Source: Saccoglossus kowalevskii
Taxonomy: Eukaryota; Hemichordata; Enteropneusta; Harrimaniidae
Assembly (NCBI RefSeq): GCF_000003605.2
Contig: NW_003106595.1
Span: 14,069-40,006, forward strand
Length of the DNA stretch: 25,938 nt
Reading direction: 5' to 3'
Shown: positions 32-25,500 of the stretch, piece after piece
Layout of the letters: each line of letters opens with the position of its first letter
Position numbering within the stretch: the first letter of the stretch is position 1
The notes under the pieces: generated by a model
What the model saw: only the letters and a program-made list of their open reading frames with translations
What the model was told of the DNA's origin: nothing
Databases searched by the model: none
Made by a program: the position numbers and the translations under genes

Positions 32-363
32 ATGCGTTACAGATAATGCGGATTTCTGGCATCGGTCATATTTTTCGAGTAGAAACTGACTCTTTTGCTT
101 TTAACCAATTATGTTATATGAGAGGGCTTACTATTTAAACATTTATTAATATTTCGTTCCCGGGAGTTGAGTTAACCCAGTAATTAGCTGGTGGGGTTGT
201 TGAAAGTAAAATCTGTTTGAAGCTGAAGTACTATCAATCTAAAGTAAATGAGCATTAATATGATGATGCTATGATATTGTTTTTTAACGAAGCGTCTCTG
301 TCCAGACTGCACACGAATAGTTGGCGAATTATAATGTTACCAATACCATATTGAAAAACATAC
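1..363 (-). other. Intron 3' of the sulfonylurea receptor TMD0 exon, with (ATTG)n at the window edge
   Basis: Everything left of the GTATGT donor is intron. Bases 1-31 are a simple (ATTG)n repeat, about 7.5 copies, cut by the window edge. No further exon is visible before the edge. Confidence 0.6.
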
Positions 364-909
364 CTTAGTTTTGAGAACATTAATTTCAGCAACTACACAG
401 CACGTATATAAAATAATAACAACAATACTGATGTCTAAACGCATCATAGTGCCATTAAATCCTCCTAAATACTCAGAGAGTCTTAATATTGCTAATAGCT
501 CTCCAATAATAGCCATGACCCAGTAAAGTAACATCCACCAGGCAAGATGAGGTCGATTCCAATGCTCCATATGATGGTAATACACCAAACTTAGTACTAC
601 ACTGATCACTGCTAACAGTTGCGGAATGTACAAGTATGGATCACTGGTAGCATTTCTAGTAAGGTCAGTAAGGATTCCATCAGCCACACTAAAGAATAGC
701 ACTGTTAGAAGCAATCCCGAAATTGCCCATTTGAATTTATGTCCGGGATAACGTATCAAGGTTTTGTGGTCGTAGTAACGTAGTTTAGTGCAGTATTTCA
801 TAACAATAAGAATAATAGACGCTACTCCAATAAAAGAAGCATGGATTACTATTTGAAGATATTGAACTTCACCGAGCTTGTCACGGCTTGTGGTGACATT
901 GGAATTCAT
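364..909 (-). CDS. ABCC8/9: Sulfonylurea receptor (ABCC8/9-like) TMD0, first coding exon, partial gene
   Basis: SUR proteins are ABC-C family regulatory subunits of ATP-sensitive potassium channels; their N-terminal TMD0 binds the Kir6 pore in the plasma membrane. The exon gives 182 residues with about five hydrophobic segments (near 18-39, 61-80, 94-112, 121-143, 157-176), as in TMD0. Recognisable SUR landmarks are a PGHKFKW motif (55-61) before helix 2, an ADGIL motif at its end (76-80), a VYYHHME motif after helix 3 and AEINVLK at the end of helix 5. An N-glycosylation sequon (Asn4) sits at the extreme N-terminus, where vertebrate SURs also have one. I chose the Met at 907-909: the 3' splice site TTTTCAG lies only 15 bases upstream (exon starts at 924) and A is at -3. 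The donor AAG|GTATGT at 364/363 is phase 0. The gene continues off the left edge. Family is clear; ABCC8 versus ABCC9 cannot be decided and is probably pre-duplication. Confidence 0.85.
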
Positions 910-924
910 GTTTGTAATTAATAT
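910..924 (-). other. 5' untranslated part of the sulfonylurea receptor exon, with 3' splice site
   Basis: A pyrimidine-rich tract ending in TTTTCAG occupies 925-936 on the minus strand, so an upstream exon must exist to the right; I could not locate it. The 15 bases between the splice site and the Met are also in frame without a stop, so the exon could be internal coding sequence, but the length and position of the Met fit a first coding exon. Confidence 0.6.
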
Positions 925-1115
925 CTGAAAAGAATACAAATATTATTGAAATTCATAACTCGTAAAAAAAATCGGTGAAATCTGTGAAAACACAAAACAA
1001 AAGAAAGCATTTCAAGTGTGTCAGATGGATGAGGAAGAAAACTTTGAATCAACTTTCAAAACAAACTGTAACACACCATATAACAATACGTTCGTGAAGC
1101 TGTTTGTGACATCCA

Positions 1116-16900: not shown

Positions 16901-19473
16901 CAGATACTTATACCGTATCTCCACATAGGTTGTTATATCCTCCATGCATTGGACAGGTTCAATTATGGGTGAGACCTACGTATGACATTTTTAATCGAAA
17001 TTTCCTCTTTTTTATTTTTATTTTCGAATCTACATTCAGTTCTCTTTATTTTGTACATTTTTGATATCCTATCTCATAAGGAAACCTTGAAAAAAATAGT
17101 CCAAACCACGCGAAAATTTAAAAAAAAATGTTAATGATTTGATGACCTAATATTCATTTGCATATAATTTTCACGATTGGTCTGAATTTCGCACTTGCTT
17201 CTCATGCGCATTTTTAGTATGTATCAGATATTAGATAACATTTCTAATGAAAAAAAAAATCAGTGTCAATCAAAAAAAATTCTGAAATCGATATTTTGGA
17301 TGAAACTAATGTTTATTTTTTAATCTACTGAACAGTATCCCAAAATGAACATTTTTGGGACACATGGTTCTAGCCAAAAATAAATAATTCGTTTTAGGTG
17401 GCATACTGTGATCTTCTGAACGGAAACATGGGTAAGAATACAAGTGTTAACGAACATGGGTAAAATATGTCAGTTACTTAAGAACAATTTTTTTAATGAA
17501 TTTTAATTATAACCAATTAGAGTTGTTTGATCTTCAGAACACAACAGTTATTTACAGTTTATATGGATCTAAGTTATCATGTTAATACAAAAAAAAATAT
17601 GCATATGTGTCAATGAGAAGTAATGGGTATTATTGGCACACGTCAATATATTAATAAAAAAACATCAACATCGAGGGATTTCCCGATGGTTTGCTTGAAA
17701 TCATCATTCACAATTATTCAAAAAGATTAAGCGTCCACCAAAGACAGACATTATTAAAACAAATGCACAAATGCATATTCAAATACAGTTTAATCGTTGT
17801 CTGCGTTTTCAATGCGCATTGCCTATGTCAAACGTGTATGTAATAAATAACAAGATTTCGTTTGGCCTGGCATCTGGTTACAATTACATAATTGGCAATG
17901 ATTAGAAACATATATAAATATATAGCACACTAATTGGAACATGGTGAATGGTTTCGCTGACTCACCCATACATTCTTCGGTGTTAAAATGCTTTTTGAAC
18001 CCAGTGGGGCAGTCTTTTTCTCTGTCTGCCGAGAAAAGAAACAAACACAGCTGTGATGAAATGACGTCATGTACACTACTATTAACATTACAGTGGCGAG
18101 GCGTCTCATATATCCATGGTACGAATTCTGATTTCACTCATTGATAAATTGTAAAGTATAGAATCGTGCTACCAACTTGGGATGGTCATTGCTATGTTAG
18201 TTTACGTCGAATTGTCCTGTCATTCAAGTAACATATTCAGGACTTTCAGAGAGCAACATGGCTTAAAATTTCGCAATACTTTACTTTGTATTTCACTCCT
18301 GGGCGTTGACACAATGACGTCATATAAACGTCATACTGTTCGTTTCATTCAAGTCACCGGATGTTTCTTAGGGGGAGGGGTAGTTGGTGCGGTATAAAGG
18401 TATCCTTAGTACAAAAATAGCATCAGACATATCCATACCTATCTGTTGCGGACATATATAGCACGGGTCACCCCAAGCTTTGCCAACCGTCGTACAGCAA
18501 TCGTCGTGAAGCGTGAGCATGTTACTGAGTGGGGCTTTACACTCGTTGTTCGTTACTACGCGAAAACAGGGTCCTCGCAAATGATGTCGTGCCAGTAAAG
18601 GTTCTGTTACGATATAACATAAAGAATATCAAATATGAATGTGTGTTTTGTATGTGTCTGAATACAATGAACAGGCGGCTAGTTTCATGACATGATGTTA
18701 AAAAGTTTCTTTTTTTTTTGATTTCTAATTATATTTGTATATATTTATTTGTTTATTTTACATTATATATTTTTATTATATTTTATTTCTGGTCGCGAAT
18801 ACACAGCAACCTATGTCTTGTTCAAACGGTGTGTCCGGGGACGTTTTGTCCTAGTACACTTTACTGTAAACACATTCTACCTTGCCCTGTTTACGTGAAA
18901 TCGACTTGGCCATGAATTCGAAATTGTGACTATTTCCGGGCACTCCGCAATGCGGTTGCTTTGTGGATATACTCGTACATAAGTGTTAAGTAGTAATATA
19001 TTTATGACTGCAACACTCCCCCATATATTACACATACATGTTTCTAATTTCAGTAGCTTACGACGCCAGCCAATGACCAAAATGCGGTGAGTGGACGGTG
19101 CGCGGTTAGAAAGTAGTGCAAACACCTTGAAGCTGCTTCAGTGACAAAAAATACCGTAACTTGAAAAATAGCGAAGAACAGTATGTTTGCGCTTTATTCA
19201 TCTGTGAGCCATAAACAAATGTTAGTTATTTATTGAATAAATTCCACGATTTTCATGTACAGGAATATGGGGTCATTGACCCCATGGCGTCACACAGAGG
19301 CGTGTATCGGACACCAGGTGACAGAGGAATGTAGGCCTTTCATTTAATGTAAATTACAAGTGACGCTAAAGTGTTCTGTTGACTGGGTTGTTATGGCAAC
19401 TAAAACGTGTTTTTGTAAATTGCCCATTTGACTTGTTGATATGTTTGATATATTTTATTAGTACAAAAAAACA

Positions 19474-19564
<91 letters not shown>

Positions 19565-22500
19565 AATATGGAATTAAAAAAAAAATAATAGCAAAATAGA
19601 CTGGGGTAAAATACATCAACGTGTGTATATAATACTGTGTAAATTGACTAGACTGGGAATACCAACGTGCGAATTAATTTTATATATAGTTCTGCGAAAC
19701 CAAACTGAAAAGTATACCACGCAATTTGTTCATTTTGTGACGATATCTCTAATTTTCACATTTCAGTGAATATTTTTGGTAATAAATTATATGTCGACTT
19801 CTTATATAACTCAAACAAAATATGTTTGTTCTGGGTCAGAAGTTTTAGTAACAACCACTTATGGTACGTTTTCACAAATTCATTTACAATTGCTACACGT
19901 TTGCTGCTAATGCGTCGGTCATAATTGTCATTTCACGTGCCTCTAGTTTCAAAGGTTACTACTGTTGTTACGTCTCTCTCAGCGAAGTTTTCGACTTGCG
20001 GGTTTGACGATTGTGTGAGTATGCCAGAAAATCGGCAAAATGTGATGAGTTCCAACGCATGCGTACACTCGCAGAATTATTCTTTTAAAGCGTCACAATT
20101 TTTTTCTGGACAACGTCTACTCTTTCAAATTATAGGCACGTAGTATAACATAAGATTGTAGTTAAGTTACATAGATGATCTCAAAACATTTCACTTGCTT
20201 GGTCTTGACCAGGAATTACCTGCCAACAACAGTTGTTTGTGTCGTTATGGAAATAAACAACACGCCATTGAATCTCAATCACAATGATTTCCGGTTCGCG
20301 CATACAAACGGTGCTGCACTGGCGTTAACCCGCGAACTGTCTTAAACTTGCTATGACTAAATAACACGTAATTGAGGATAGAGCGGGCATAATGTAGCCC
20401 AGACAGTTCGTCTTATTTTCAAAAACTTAGGCTGCGAGTATTTCAATCGTTGATGCATGTTTTCCCTCCGCTCTACCCTACGTCATTGCAAACATTGTCA
20501 TTCAAATCACTTCCGAGCGAAAAGGTTAACCACGGCTCACTTTCATTGTCCGAAAGCGAATCACTGTCACGGCACGCCCAATTCCACATTTTCTCAGCAT
20601 TACGGTAGCCCTCCGACCGATTCGTGACGGCAAAACATACAGAAACTTCCGACTGTCGTTTTTAATCTCATACAGGCTATTGTATATTGAAATGCCGATA
20701 AAAAAGACACTTTATATTGGGAGTGTCTGATGATTATTAGCAACAAAATTTTGTATACATCTATGTGTATATACACGTACCTTAGCGATAAATGGGGGAC
20801 TACGCCTATGGGTTGGCCATGTAATTGAATATAAAAGATGATGGAGAGTCTAAGTTTCACACAACTTCATGGAATTTGAGAACACCTGTTGATATTAGGA
20901 GAAAAACATCGTGGACTTTATTAGAAATACAAGTTCCATAGACGGTCACGATGGCTGTGAAGGCGAGGGTTTACATTTTCTTCGGATGTTGGGTGATACT
21001 TTCAGTGGGAGCATTCGTACTGAACATTTTGAACGTGGATTGGGAGCGGACACACATCGCACACGGACTTATACTGTGTGTTGTATTAGGTATTTTACAA
21101 AGCTGTGTTATGGAAATGGTAATGAATACCATGGTGACTATAATAACACGTATGACGTGCTGGAAACACTACGATGATAGAGCCGACTACTCTAACTTGA
21201 CTTTGATAATGGCGTACAATCTACTAGCGTTGAGCCAATCGGATATTGATGCAACTTTTGGGAGCATGTACGACGCTTTTATGGGTAACCTCAGCGAAAA
21301 AATCTCTATTGTTCTCGTCAGTGCAACAGGTAATGCTGATCTTAAACAGTATGAGGTTGAGTGTTGCCAGCGTTACAGGGAACTCGTATATGATACACTT
21401 CTCGCCGAGTGTTGTGCTTACACGTACGGGAACGAAAGTTGTATAGATCAGGGACGACTGAATCTCTTCTGGAAGAAGTACGCAAAGGCTGATCTGCGGA
21501 ACAATACCGAGGAATTCTGCGCAAACATCGCGAATGAGTTCATGGTAATCCATCGCGTGAGTCGAGTCCTGCGAAAGTGTGGCCAATACCAGGATTTAAT
21601 TCAGTTAAGTTCAGGGGACGATAAAGCCTATACATACACCGACATTGAATATTACGGGAAGATGGCAAGACAGTATGGCGAACCATTGTTTTATGAATGC
21701 CCTGACGTGGCTAACATTCGAGGGCGTTCTTTTGACTACACTCTTGTGCTTGACGGCGACACCGGAGTGGCTCCTGCTGTGGCGCACGAAATCCTCGCGA
21801 TAGCAGCGGCAAACCCGGAGCGAGGATTAATTCAGCCAAGCATCATCATGGATGTTAATGACGATGATACTTTGTTCATGCACCTTGAGAAGCTCCGTCA
21901 GGATATAAATGCCCCCGTGGGGGACGCCATTACGAACATGTTCGGACAATGTGGATTTTTCGGTAAAGGCCTGATCAAGAATAAAATATACCTAGAGGAG
22001 GTAATTGGGACTCGGAGTAATCTACTAGAGAAAGTTCCTGTCGATGTTCTTAGTCATGATACATTCGAGGCAGCTATCCTCAAACCGTATTACGCTGGAA
22101 GTACATTCTTATTAGAAGGTCCGTGCTTCAACTACATCACGTGGGACATCCGCGAAAGGCGTTGGAACAAAGGAGAGGTCCTGCTTTCAAAGTATTTCTG
22201 GAAAAAACCAATTGGCAGACCGATGAAATGGCTACAGAGAAAAGTCCAAGGTGAAGACTTCAATGACACCAAGGTACGGACAGAATGTGACTTCGACGTG
22301 GTTAGCAAATACGTCGCTCATACTGCTATCCGAATGATGTTGATGAAACCACTCCTTCTTCTGTATATCTTCATCAGCATCAACTCTCATATGCTGTATC
22401 CATATCTACCGCTCGTCATTATCATGTTTCTAATAATAGTATTTCCGAAATTGGCTGTACTGACTTTTAGAAACATTCATTTAGTTCTACTCGAGACCGT

Positions 22501-25500
22501 GTGTTCAATATTACAGTTCACACCAGAGGCCGTGGTCGGCTGTGTTAGACTCTTTCAAGCAATCCAGGCTAACATATGCAAATGTAGCAAATGGGTCCCC
22601 CAAAGGGCGGTAGAAGAAGAATTCATGAACAAAAACGTGTTCATTTCGAGTTTCAAACATATGTGGGGGTATTCTTTATTTAGCGGCGTTTTGATAGTGG
22701 TTTTTGCTGTCTTCGCGCCACATGCTTTGTTAATTTATTGTCTACTACTGACAGTATTCTTGCTGCCAATTTTCACCGCTCTTACGTCATTAAAACTCAG
22801 TCTAACAACGAAGAGTAGATACCGCTTGAACGTGAGAGAAAATTTCTCACGCGTTTCCAGTATAAGTAGTCTCGGGATGCTTGACTCGAATTACTCTTTC
22901 GCTTTGAACATATCAGAAATTTAAATCATACTTCTTATATATGAATTATCGACCAATCTCAGTGTGTGTAACAGCCACATGGGAAACAGACTGACCAATC
23001 TTGTTGCAAGTAAATTGTAAATATGTTAATTAGCTGTGTTATACCCTACAATGACATGCGGGTTTGACCCAAAGCCTGTACATTACTTCACGAATGCCAC
23101 ATGGACGGCACGACATTTGAGGCCCTGGATGCACATCATTGTAATTTATTTTTTTTATTTATGAATGTAATCACTAACCAATTTATATTATTATTTATCT
23201 ATTTATTTATTTGAAATAATGTGCTACTATTCACTGCCTTTGTCCGCATGTTGTACAAAATGTTGTGTTTGTATTATGCACTGTATTCAGGTACTAAAAG
23301 GATCTAATGAAATAAACAAATCGTATACATGTATTAAACGAACAATTGTATTCTCTGTTCAATTGGTGACAAAGTAAGGACGTAGGTGGCGTGTTTTGAA
23401 ATGAGTGTGGAACGCAGGTGAGGTGTGGGTCACTCTGTGGCAGATGACATTCACGTACATTCGAGCCATAACAAAAACACGAACTAAATATAAATTATGA
23501 TCCCCCAAATTGTAAACATACCTGTTGTTATTATCGCCGGTTGTTGCGTTGCTAGTAGCAACTGGCAAGCATAACCATAGTACCCAGTAAGACAGTAACA
23601 CTGATTTGGTCCCACACATCTTCCACCGTTTAGACACTGGAAATAACACACGGCTACCGGAATAGAAGAAAAATGTATTCGCAAAAATAAATAACCAATC
23701 CACAAGTTGAGAAATGCTGTTTTTTGATGTACTGGTGTTAGAGGGAACTTTCATGTGGGATTCTCGAACTCAGGGGGTCACATGACATGATACGTCAAAC
23801 AGCGTGCATGGTCAACAGTCACACTTATCACGACGGCTGCAAGATTCTTTACTTGGGGCGCACCTTTTTCGATGTCGCGCTGTTGTGTTGCATTGTGGGA
23901 TATACTTATGTGAGTAACAACGGTTTAGATGCTCCTCTAAATCCTCTACGTGGTAAAGCTTGCTGTAATGTTGTATGCGCATGCGCAGGGCTTCATGACA
24001 GTTAAGACACAGTAAGGAAGTTTAGCGTAACTAACATTGCTTTCTTTCGATATCCTCGTTTATTAGACTGTGAAAATATTTTCACGAAACTCGCGATATA
24101 AAAGTGAAAAAGTGACTCGGCACATTATCATGCATTTTACGCAATATGTGTTTCCAGGGATAACTGGCGGCTGGGAAATGTACACAGATCGCACAAGGTT
24201 GTTTACAAGTAGTGTAAGCACAAGTCAACTATGACTGACAGACAGTCAATCAGTACATGCAACGATGGTTGGCTGCATATGAACAAATGATGTGCAGTCA
24301 GTCAGGTACTGAGCCTGATGTCACGTCATCAATCCCCACACGGGCGACATCTGGGGTTTCACGGTGAAATGCGGTCAATAAATGACATTTATCATAACAC
24401 ATGTTTAATAGTTTGTGGTTCATCTTCCTTTTTTCTGGTGAAAATCTAACTCGGATAACAGTGAATTGATCTAACGCGAGATAGCGTATTGGAATGTTTC
24501 CGTATAAACCGAGGTAACCATAAAGGTGTCACAAGTAAACCCTGGACGGCGAAGATTAAGTACTAGTATCTGTCAGACGAAATACAGTGAAAGTACATTT
24601 CAAATAAGCATTAGCTGCCTACGTGAACACACCAACTAATTAAAATACTTCGACGTCTGTTAAATTGTCTTCACATATTTATGTTCCACCATATCACATT
24701 ACATTTACAATATACCACATCTGTATTACATTACAACGGACGGCATACGGTAATATTAACAATTACATTACACTACATTACATTACATCACATTACATTA
24801 CATTACATTATAAAGGGTGATATACGGTGATATTAACAATTACATTACTTGTGCATTACATTACAACGGACGACATACGGAAATATTAACAATTACATTA
24901 CATTACAACGGACGACATATAGTAATATTAACAATTACATTACAACGGACGACATACGGTAATATTAACAATTACATTACATAACAACGGTGACAAACGG
25001 TGATATTAACAATTACATTACTTGTGCATTACATTACAACGGACGACATACGGAAATATTAACAATTACATTACATTACAACGGACGACATATGGTAATA
25101 TTAACAATTACATTACAACGGACGACATACGGTAATATTAACAATTACATTACATAACAACGGTGACAAACGGTGATATTAACAATTACATTACATTACA
25201 TTACAATGGGCCACATATGGTGATATTAACAATTACATTACAACGGGCCACATGCGGTGATATTCACAATTACATTACACTGCAAGGTATTATGGCGATA
25301 TTGTAAAGTACGGTATGTATGCAATATTTGTCTGTCTCATGAAATAAAACAGTAGAGCATGCTGTATCATCTATGTAGAATTGTTTACACACAGCAGCGC
25401 CAGGATCTGGTTAGCGTCATGTGGGGATCAGACCATTAATTTAGGAGAACTATCATCGAAGTGGTACGTCTCGCCTGGGTAAATTGTATGACGTGGAGAT

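Follow-up and report, generated by a model that had tools for sequence, protein, structure and literature searches.

Does the genome of the enteropneust Saccoglossus kowalevskii encode a polysaccharide synthase related to bacterial glucan synthases, and if so, where does it come from and what may it do? The question is raised by an open reading frame (P0001) in a 25,938-nucleotide stretch of contig NW_003106595.1 (assembly GCF_000003605.2, positions 14,069 to 40,006 of the forward strand), the whole of which is called here the window. Among animals, membrane enzymes of this fold that make polysaccharides comprise, to our knowledge, the synthases of chitin and hyaluronan and, in tunicates, of cellulose. 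P0001 was compared above all with GT84 enzymes and with OpgH (MdoH), the osmoregulated periplasmic glucan glucosyltransferase, which we take to belong to CAZy GT2. The gene and its immediate surroundings are as follows (window coordinates).

20951..22924, + strand: P0001, intronless open reading frame of 657 aa, predicted OpgH/GT84-like membrane glycosyltransferase (frame reading, profiles, tree and alignment)
18604..23521, - strand: putative 4,918-base intron of a fibrillin-like gene, enclosing P0001 in antisense (GT/AG signals and agreeing phases; flanking domains)

The frame begins with ATG and runs through 657 codons with zero internal stops; a TAG lies in frame four codons upstream of the ATG, a TATAAA at 20830 and an AATAAA at 23311. 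"Intronless" refers here to the coding region, as introns in the untranslated regions would need RNA to be seen. From stop to stop the frame measures 660 codons; when the window was shuffled 30 times by mononucleotide, no frame was longer than 183. Elsewhere in the genome there is one intact, likewise intronless and equally uninterrupted paralogue, which is 57% identical, and searches with either copy as query returned these two copies only, among the best candidates scored. Over 632 aligned codons the copies differ at 39%, 22% and 64% of first, second and third codon positions, respectively; NG86 dN is 0.376, and dS is not computable. Silent sites are saturated, and most differences are silent. 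P0001 is a real gene under constraint, because its frame far exceeds those of the shuffles, the 57% identical copy is uninterrupted and the differences are distributed among codon positions in this manner. Furthermore, both copies reside in animal DNA (contigs of 784,738 and 312,492 bases): fibrillin-like exons, recognized by domain matches, flank P0001, and a MIS13/DSN1 frame lies near the paralogue. No Rfam family matched in the window.

The residues and segments that bear on function are all on the + strand.

20963..21136, +: two N-terminal hydrophobic segments, residues about 5-31 and 34-62 (Kyte-Doolittle)
21323..21325, +: codon 125, Ala in both animal copies, aligning with D527 of Cgs
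21752..21760, +: DxD motif, D268-G-D270 (frame reading, alignment)
21956..21970, +: FFGKG motif, residues 336-340, with GK as in GT84 (frame reading, alignment)
22052..22060, +: SHD motif, residues 368-370; D370 aligns with D739 of Cgs
22151..22165, +: RERRW motif, residues 401-405; R401 falls at Cgs R773, part of the RW motif
22322..22537, +: hydrophobic segments, residues about 458-529 (Kyte-Doolittle)
22592..22606, +: WVPQR, residues 548-552, resembling a W-x-P-Q-R stretch in many OpgH rows of the alignment
22658..22810, +: C-terminal hydrophobic segments, residues about 570-620 (Kyte-Doolittle)

The preliminary description of this DNA had reported the intact 657-codon frame, the DxD, FFGKG, SHD and RERRW motifs and an animal setting, and it was correct on each of these points. 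PMC10901819 gives D527 of Cgs as the UDP-coordinating Asp, D739 as the catalytic base and R773 as part of the RW motif. In the alignment, D268, D270, D370, R401, R404 and W405 are conserved, and both animal copies keep D268 and D270 as well as D370 and R401, the positions of the catalytic base and the RW-motif Arg of Cgs. LSHD, E373, R401, R404 and W405 are found in 48 of 48 animal, GT84 and OpgH rows, and the combination of LSHD, E373 and R401 likewise in 48 of 48 but in neither BcsA nor PgaC (0/2); note that these counts are partly built in, as most of the 46 bacterial rows were fetched or cut by motifs of the LSHD/E373/R401 type. Position 125 is Ala in both animal copies and Asp in all 48 other aligned rows, including 9 of 9 from GT84. 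All nine GT84 rows have a Tyr at +69 to +72 from DxD; no Tyr was found at residues 300-342 in either animal copy (a Tyr at 347 comes after this stretch). A Pfam search of the 657-aa chain found no GH94 or cyclase partner domain, and PF10091 had no match in the genome (one candidate scored).

The likeness to GT84 and OpgH, which had been noticed from motifs alone, was borne out by BLASTP, HMM, hhalign and the motif alignment, and P0001 is a homologue of both. The BLASTP comparisons covered three single pairs (P0001 with GT84, 6e-14; paralogue with GT84, 2e-8; paralogue with E. coli OpgH, 2e-10), P0001 with OpgH not being among them. The GT84 HMM scored P0001 at 44.3 bits and the paralogue at 43.7, compared with 15.7 for E. 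coli OpgH, 0.6 for PgaC and -0.1 for BcsA. With the OpgH HMM the paralogue reached 30.7 bits and P0001 22.8, a score that is weak alone because BcsA (20.3) and PgaC (14.3) come close on the same profile. In hhalign the animal pair aligned to the OpgH profile with 1.3e-21 over 527 columns and to the GT84 profile with 6.7e-19 over 577 columns; against single sequences the values were 2.4e-8 (GT84), 7.6e-8 (OpgH), 0.078 (PgaC) and 0.34 (BcsA), with 0.54 and 0.12 for shuffled controls. The NCBIfam MdoH equivalog gave 21.2 bits (cut-off 328) and 29.7 bits (cut-off 419), far below the cut-offs. Among solved structures neither P0001 nor the pair matched anything relevant; in the same search the GT84 comparison protein matched 8rf0/8rf9 and E. 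coli OpgH matched none.

That P0001 might simply be a chitin or hyaluronan synthase of the usual animal kind, with unusual motifs, is scarcely credible. It shares the same broad GT2-type fold group, and PF13632 (Glyco_trans_2_3) matches it weakly (16.2 bits, E 0.0096; gathering score 27) and is not among the matches of the paralogue up to E 0.1. However, residue 401 is R rather than Q, SHD stands in place of TED, PF03142 is absent from the two Pfam matches of P0001, and hhalign to BcsA and PgaC gave values like those of shuffled controls. On the motifs and profiles this assignment was rejected, in agreement with the preliminary description, which had set the protein apart from these synthases. 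A genome search with PF03142 also found none (three candidates scored), but this genome-wide absence says little, as the same type of search with PF13632 missed P0001 itself.

Relatives were sought in a genome collection, in genomes of two phyla, and among viral contigs, phages and plasmids. A pattern scan based on P0001 alone yielded 69 stretches and no confirmed relative, and a scan based on the motif alignment at least 257 relatives among 592 stretches; in the 80 loci kept, the best bacterial segments reach 23-33% identity. In a search of 785 genomes from two phyla, 52 of 398 (maximum 33.5 bits) and 29 of 387 (maximum 31.5 bits) matched. Three scans of viral contigs gave no confirmed relative, and phages no match; among plasmids, 70 and 127 records were found, the best E among the matches listed being 3e-4 and 2e-4. 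The papers found on "glucans biosynthesis glucosyltransferase" concern, by title or start of abstract, bacteria or microbiota, and a term search of the main text of a compendium of metazoan transfers (PMC13342648) found no "glucan", "glucosyltransferase" or "OpgH". In the tree, the animal pair adjoins GT84 yet lies outside it (98/93); its stem measures 4.0 changes per column, and long-branch warnings apply. OpgH was not recovered as a single clade; with an outgroup root, GT84 and the animal pair emerge among OpgH lines of poorly settled branching. Since OpgH is not resolved as one clade and AU tests do not fix the deep position of the pair, the tree neither establishes that the pair descends from within bacteria nor speaks against it. 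The suggestion of an animal clade of its own holds as a two-copy group, in both tree and genome search; the tree expected to settle the origin placed the pair beside GT84 and left its deeper position undecided.

For horizontal acquisition, as originally proposed, no donor emerged, as no bacterial relative exceeded about 33% identity in the 80 loci kept or 33.5 bits in the 785 genomes. The data lend no support to a recent transfer from any bacterium sampled, and this or bacterial contamination is highly improbable: the nearest relatives found are bacterial, the coding region is a single exon and its GC content is 0.436 compared with 0.368 for the window, but the long contigs, the fibrillin-like exons and the MIS13 frame, the low bacterial identity and the silent-site saturation between the copies all argue against it. 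We give about even chances to an ancient transfer from an OpgH/GT84-type bacterium to an animal ancestor, followed by duplication. The finding of relatives in bacteria alone among the collections searched, the lack of introns in both copies and the outgroup-rooted tree are consistent with it; the position outside GT84, the long stem and the indecisive AU tests count against it, and since those collections were not eukaryotic the gene may also have come from a protist or be an older eukaryotic one. Copies made by retroposition from an animal parent gene with introns would likewise be intronless, and P0001 sits in antisense inside a putative intron; this origin is nevertheless unlikely, as only the two copies turned up with either as query among the best candidates scored.

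As to function, P0001 is probably an active membrane-embedded inverting transferase of the beta-glucan synthase type. A cytosolic catalytic domain would lie between two membrane segments on its N-terminal side and probably four on its C-terminal side. In this domain the metal-binding DxD would hold a nucleotide-sugar, most likely UDP-glucose, although A125 casts doubt on which nucleotide the donor carries. D370 would act as base on the acceptor hydroxyl, with the RxxRW region lining the active site, and a beta-linked glucan or similar chain may be extended processively in an OpgH-like manner without a primer-tyrosine loop. A non-processive transferase, which would attach one or a few sugars to a protein or lipid, or a weakened homologue serving a different purpose, appears rather unlikely: the A125 replacement, the missing primer-loop Tyr and the absence of partner domains would fit it, whereas both copies have retained the remaining catalytic motifs although their silent sites are saturated, and the hydrophobic segments are placed as in polymer synthases. 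On balance we favour, with reasonable confidence, a membrane-embedded inverting GT-A enzyme, homologous to OpgH and GT84, apart from both and with no recognizable donor. Such a constrained pair would suggest that the animal makes a glycan so far unrecognized, and enzymes that lack the UDP-binding Asp but are otherwise intact would also allow donor selection in this fold to be tested directly. More tentatively, some animals may possess a third, OpgH/GT84-type class of synthase, with an altered nucleotide pocket, which would make an undescribed beta-glucan (beta-1,2 or related) independently of chitin, hyaluronan and cellulose synthases.

BcsA and PgaC share DxD, the aspartate base and RW with the animal proteins but have TED and QxxRW where the latter have SHD and RxxRW, and their hhalign match is at shuffled-control level. 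With GT84 the pair shares the 577-column profile alignment, DxDT, GK, LSHD, RxxRW, F372 (7 of 9 GT84 rows) and the hydrophobic segments on either side of the core; it differs in that the P0001 chain carries neither a GH94 nor a cyclase domain, in lacking a primer-Tyr loop, in having A125 for D527 and a DxD-SHD spacing of 102 (114-117 in GT84), and in its place outside the GT84 clade. That spacing is OpgH-like (102-103), as are the size, the common LSHDxxEAA, RxRRW (36 of 37 OpgH rows) and W-x-x-Q (Q in 31 and R in 20 of 37). Unlike OpgH, the animal copies have LSHDTFEA rather than LSHDFVEA, GKG/GKA rather than G(H)NA, DxDT rather than DxDS and A125 in place of D, at an identity of 19-21%. The animal pair mixes GT84-like and OpgH-like residues; its nearest relatives found are bacterial beta-1,2-glucan synthases, from which it has diverged so far that it forms a group apart.

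The P0001 gene is a real, constrained animal gene. Its open reading frame at window 20951-22924 (+) consists, as the preliminary description stated, of 657 uninterrupted codons, and the protein carries the motifs named there (D268/D270, FFGKG, SHD at 368-370 and RERRW at 401-405). An in-frame stop lies 4 codons 5' of the ATG, and the stop-to-stop frame of 660 codons compares with a longest frame of 183 codons in the shuffled window (30 shuffles). A single further copy was found in the genome (572 Mb, 4830 contigs), with P0001 or the paralogue as query alike. This paralogue (632 aa, uninterrupted, 56-57% identity to P0001) is located on another contig of 312,492 bases. As the two copies differ at 39/22/64% of codon positions 1/2/3 and dS was not computable, the duplication is old and the copies are under constraint. 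In P0001 and the paralogue GC3 is 0.487 and 0.410, in the MIS13 frame near the paralogue 0.366. Two minus-strand open frames near the paralogue (L116:600-1199 and L115:288-960), which may be non-LTR retroelement pieces, matched no Pfam family up to E 0.1.

Features around the two copies (window coordinates unless a paralogue locus, L115, is named):
20830, TATAAA near the P0001 ORF
23311, AATAAA near the P0001 ORF
8271-18628 and 23522-23636, fibrillin-like gene exons on the minus strand (3 TB and 3 calcium-binding EGF domains scanned)
23636-23522, minus strand, EGF-like exon of 115 nt, splice signals read, Pfam score below cut-off
18603-18439, minus strand, TB exon of 165 nt, splice signals read
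L115:6288-7223, frame of the kinetochore gene MIS13/DSN1 on the minus strand (PF08202, E 1.3e-8), ~2.3 kb from the paralogue

The contig holding P0001 has 784,738 bases. Among 10 open frames of the window scanned, three minus-strand frames contained TB domains (E 3e-9 to 1.4e-14), which we take to be animal domains, and three had EGF_CA above the cut-off; LTBP1 and fibrillin were the best solved-structure matches of the one TB frame searched. The neighbouring minus-strand gene is an animal fibrillin-like gene; more of its EGF-like frames were spotted by eye. The EGF-like and TB exons have GT/AG boundaries with agreeing phases, and a simple pattern search revealed no cysteine-rich minus-strand frame within the 4,918 bases between them. 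The P0001 ORF lies inside this predicted 4,918-base intron, on the opposite strand. The window also contains a hydrophobic 201-codon open frame (337-942, minus strand; weak ABC transporter TMD0 match below cut-off, PF24357, E 0.0016), ATAA x23, all perfect (19473-19565), and a tandem array of ~42-base units with a longer period of 173 bases (24725-25279).

P0001 represents a divergent OpgH/GT84-type variant. Curated libraries were weak on the animal copies (P0001 against PF13632, E 0.0096, below cut-off; MdoH models, E 8.8e-5 and 1.8e-7, both with scores well short of their cut-offs), whereas pairwise comparisons (GT84, 6e-14; paralogue with OpgH, 2e-10) and profile-profile comparisons of the animal pair (GT84, 6.7e-19 over 577 columns; OpgH, 1.3e-21 over 527 columns) were clearer. 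Against single BcsA and PgaC sequences and two shuffled controls the values ranged from 0.078 to 0.54, but the OpgH profile scored BcsA at 20.3 bits, close to P0001 (22.8), which counts against clean separation. A chitin or hyaluronan synthase was rejected for P0001 by motifs and profiles. The whole-genome PF13632 search missed the P0001 ORF, so such family searches of this genome under-report divergent members.

The GT84/OpgH likeness proposed in the preliminary description is borne out by profiles and motifs; the horizontal transfer proposed with it is unproven. Recent bacterial transfer or contamination is unlikely. Neither the species-genome collection (among the matches listed), nor 785 genomes from two phyla, nor the plasmids, phages and viral contigs scanned yielded a close relative. 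The gene may descend from an ancient transfer, or may be an old eukaryotic gene, patchily retained. In a tree with bacterial relatives, rooted with BcsA and PgaC, the pair is sister to GT84 (99/98) and outside it (support for GT84 itself, 98/93). Its stem measures 4.0 changes per column and drew long-branch warnings. The OpgH rows do not form a single clade there; a branch separates them from the rest in 24% of 200 bootstrap trees. A smaller set likewise joined the pair to GT84 (SH-aLRT 91.7, not starred). AU tests on this set rejected none of three alternatives (pair with OpgH, p 0.103; pair with outgroup, 0.105; GT84 with OpgH without the pair, 0.107). The pair thus stands apart, with more than one deep position compatible with the data.

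P0001 would act on the cytosolic side with a nucleotide sugar, inverting through D370 and extending a chain that needs no protein primer; by analogy with its relatives, the sugar would be glucose and the product a beta-glucan. The donor is the weakest part of this proposal because of the Ala125 change (see below). An exon-wise search of the genome, which has limited power, gave no match to PF10091, the family of the cyclase-type domain.

The site alignment comprised 50 distinct rows (2 animal, 9 GT84, 37 OpgH, 2 other). LSHD, E373 and R401/R404/W405 occur in 48/48 animal, GT84 and OpgH rows, in the bacterial ones partly by construction, since loci had been retrieved with LSHD and RxxRW patterns and the rows added afterwards were trimmed at these motifs; six rows from named records came via annotation or BLAST. 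BcsA and PgaC have TED and QxxRW in place of SHD and RxxRW. According to PMC10901819, the GT84 enzyme Cgs has six TM helices, binds UDP through D527/D624, uses D739 as its base, has R773 within the RW motif and carries Y694 as self-glucosylated primer on the IF1h loop. With Cgs numbers placed by motif spacing rather than from its sequence, D268, D370 and R401 are the aligned counterparts of D624, D739 and R773, whereas both animal copies lack the loop bearing the primer Tyr and have Ala125 at the D527 position, which is part of no search pattern and is Asp in 48/48 other rows. The hydrophobic segments of P0001 flanking the core (about 5-62, 458-529 and 570-620) are compatible with the six helices described for Cgs. 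P0001 resembles GT84 in T271, K339 and Y395 (8/9), and OpgH in A374, A375 and Q551 (31/37) and in its DxD-SHD spacing of 102 (102-103 in 40 OpgH rows, 114-117 in 9 GT84 rows).
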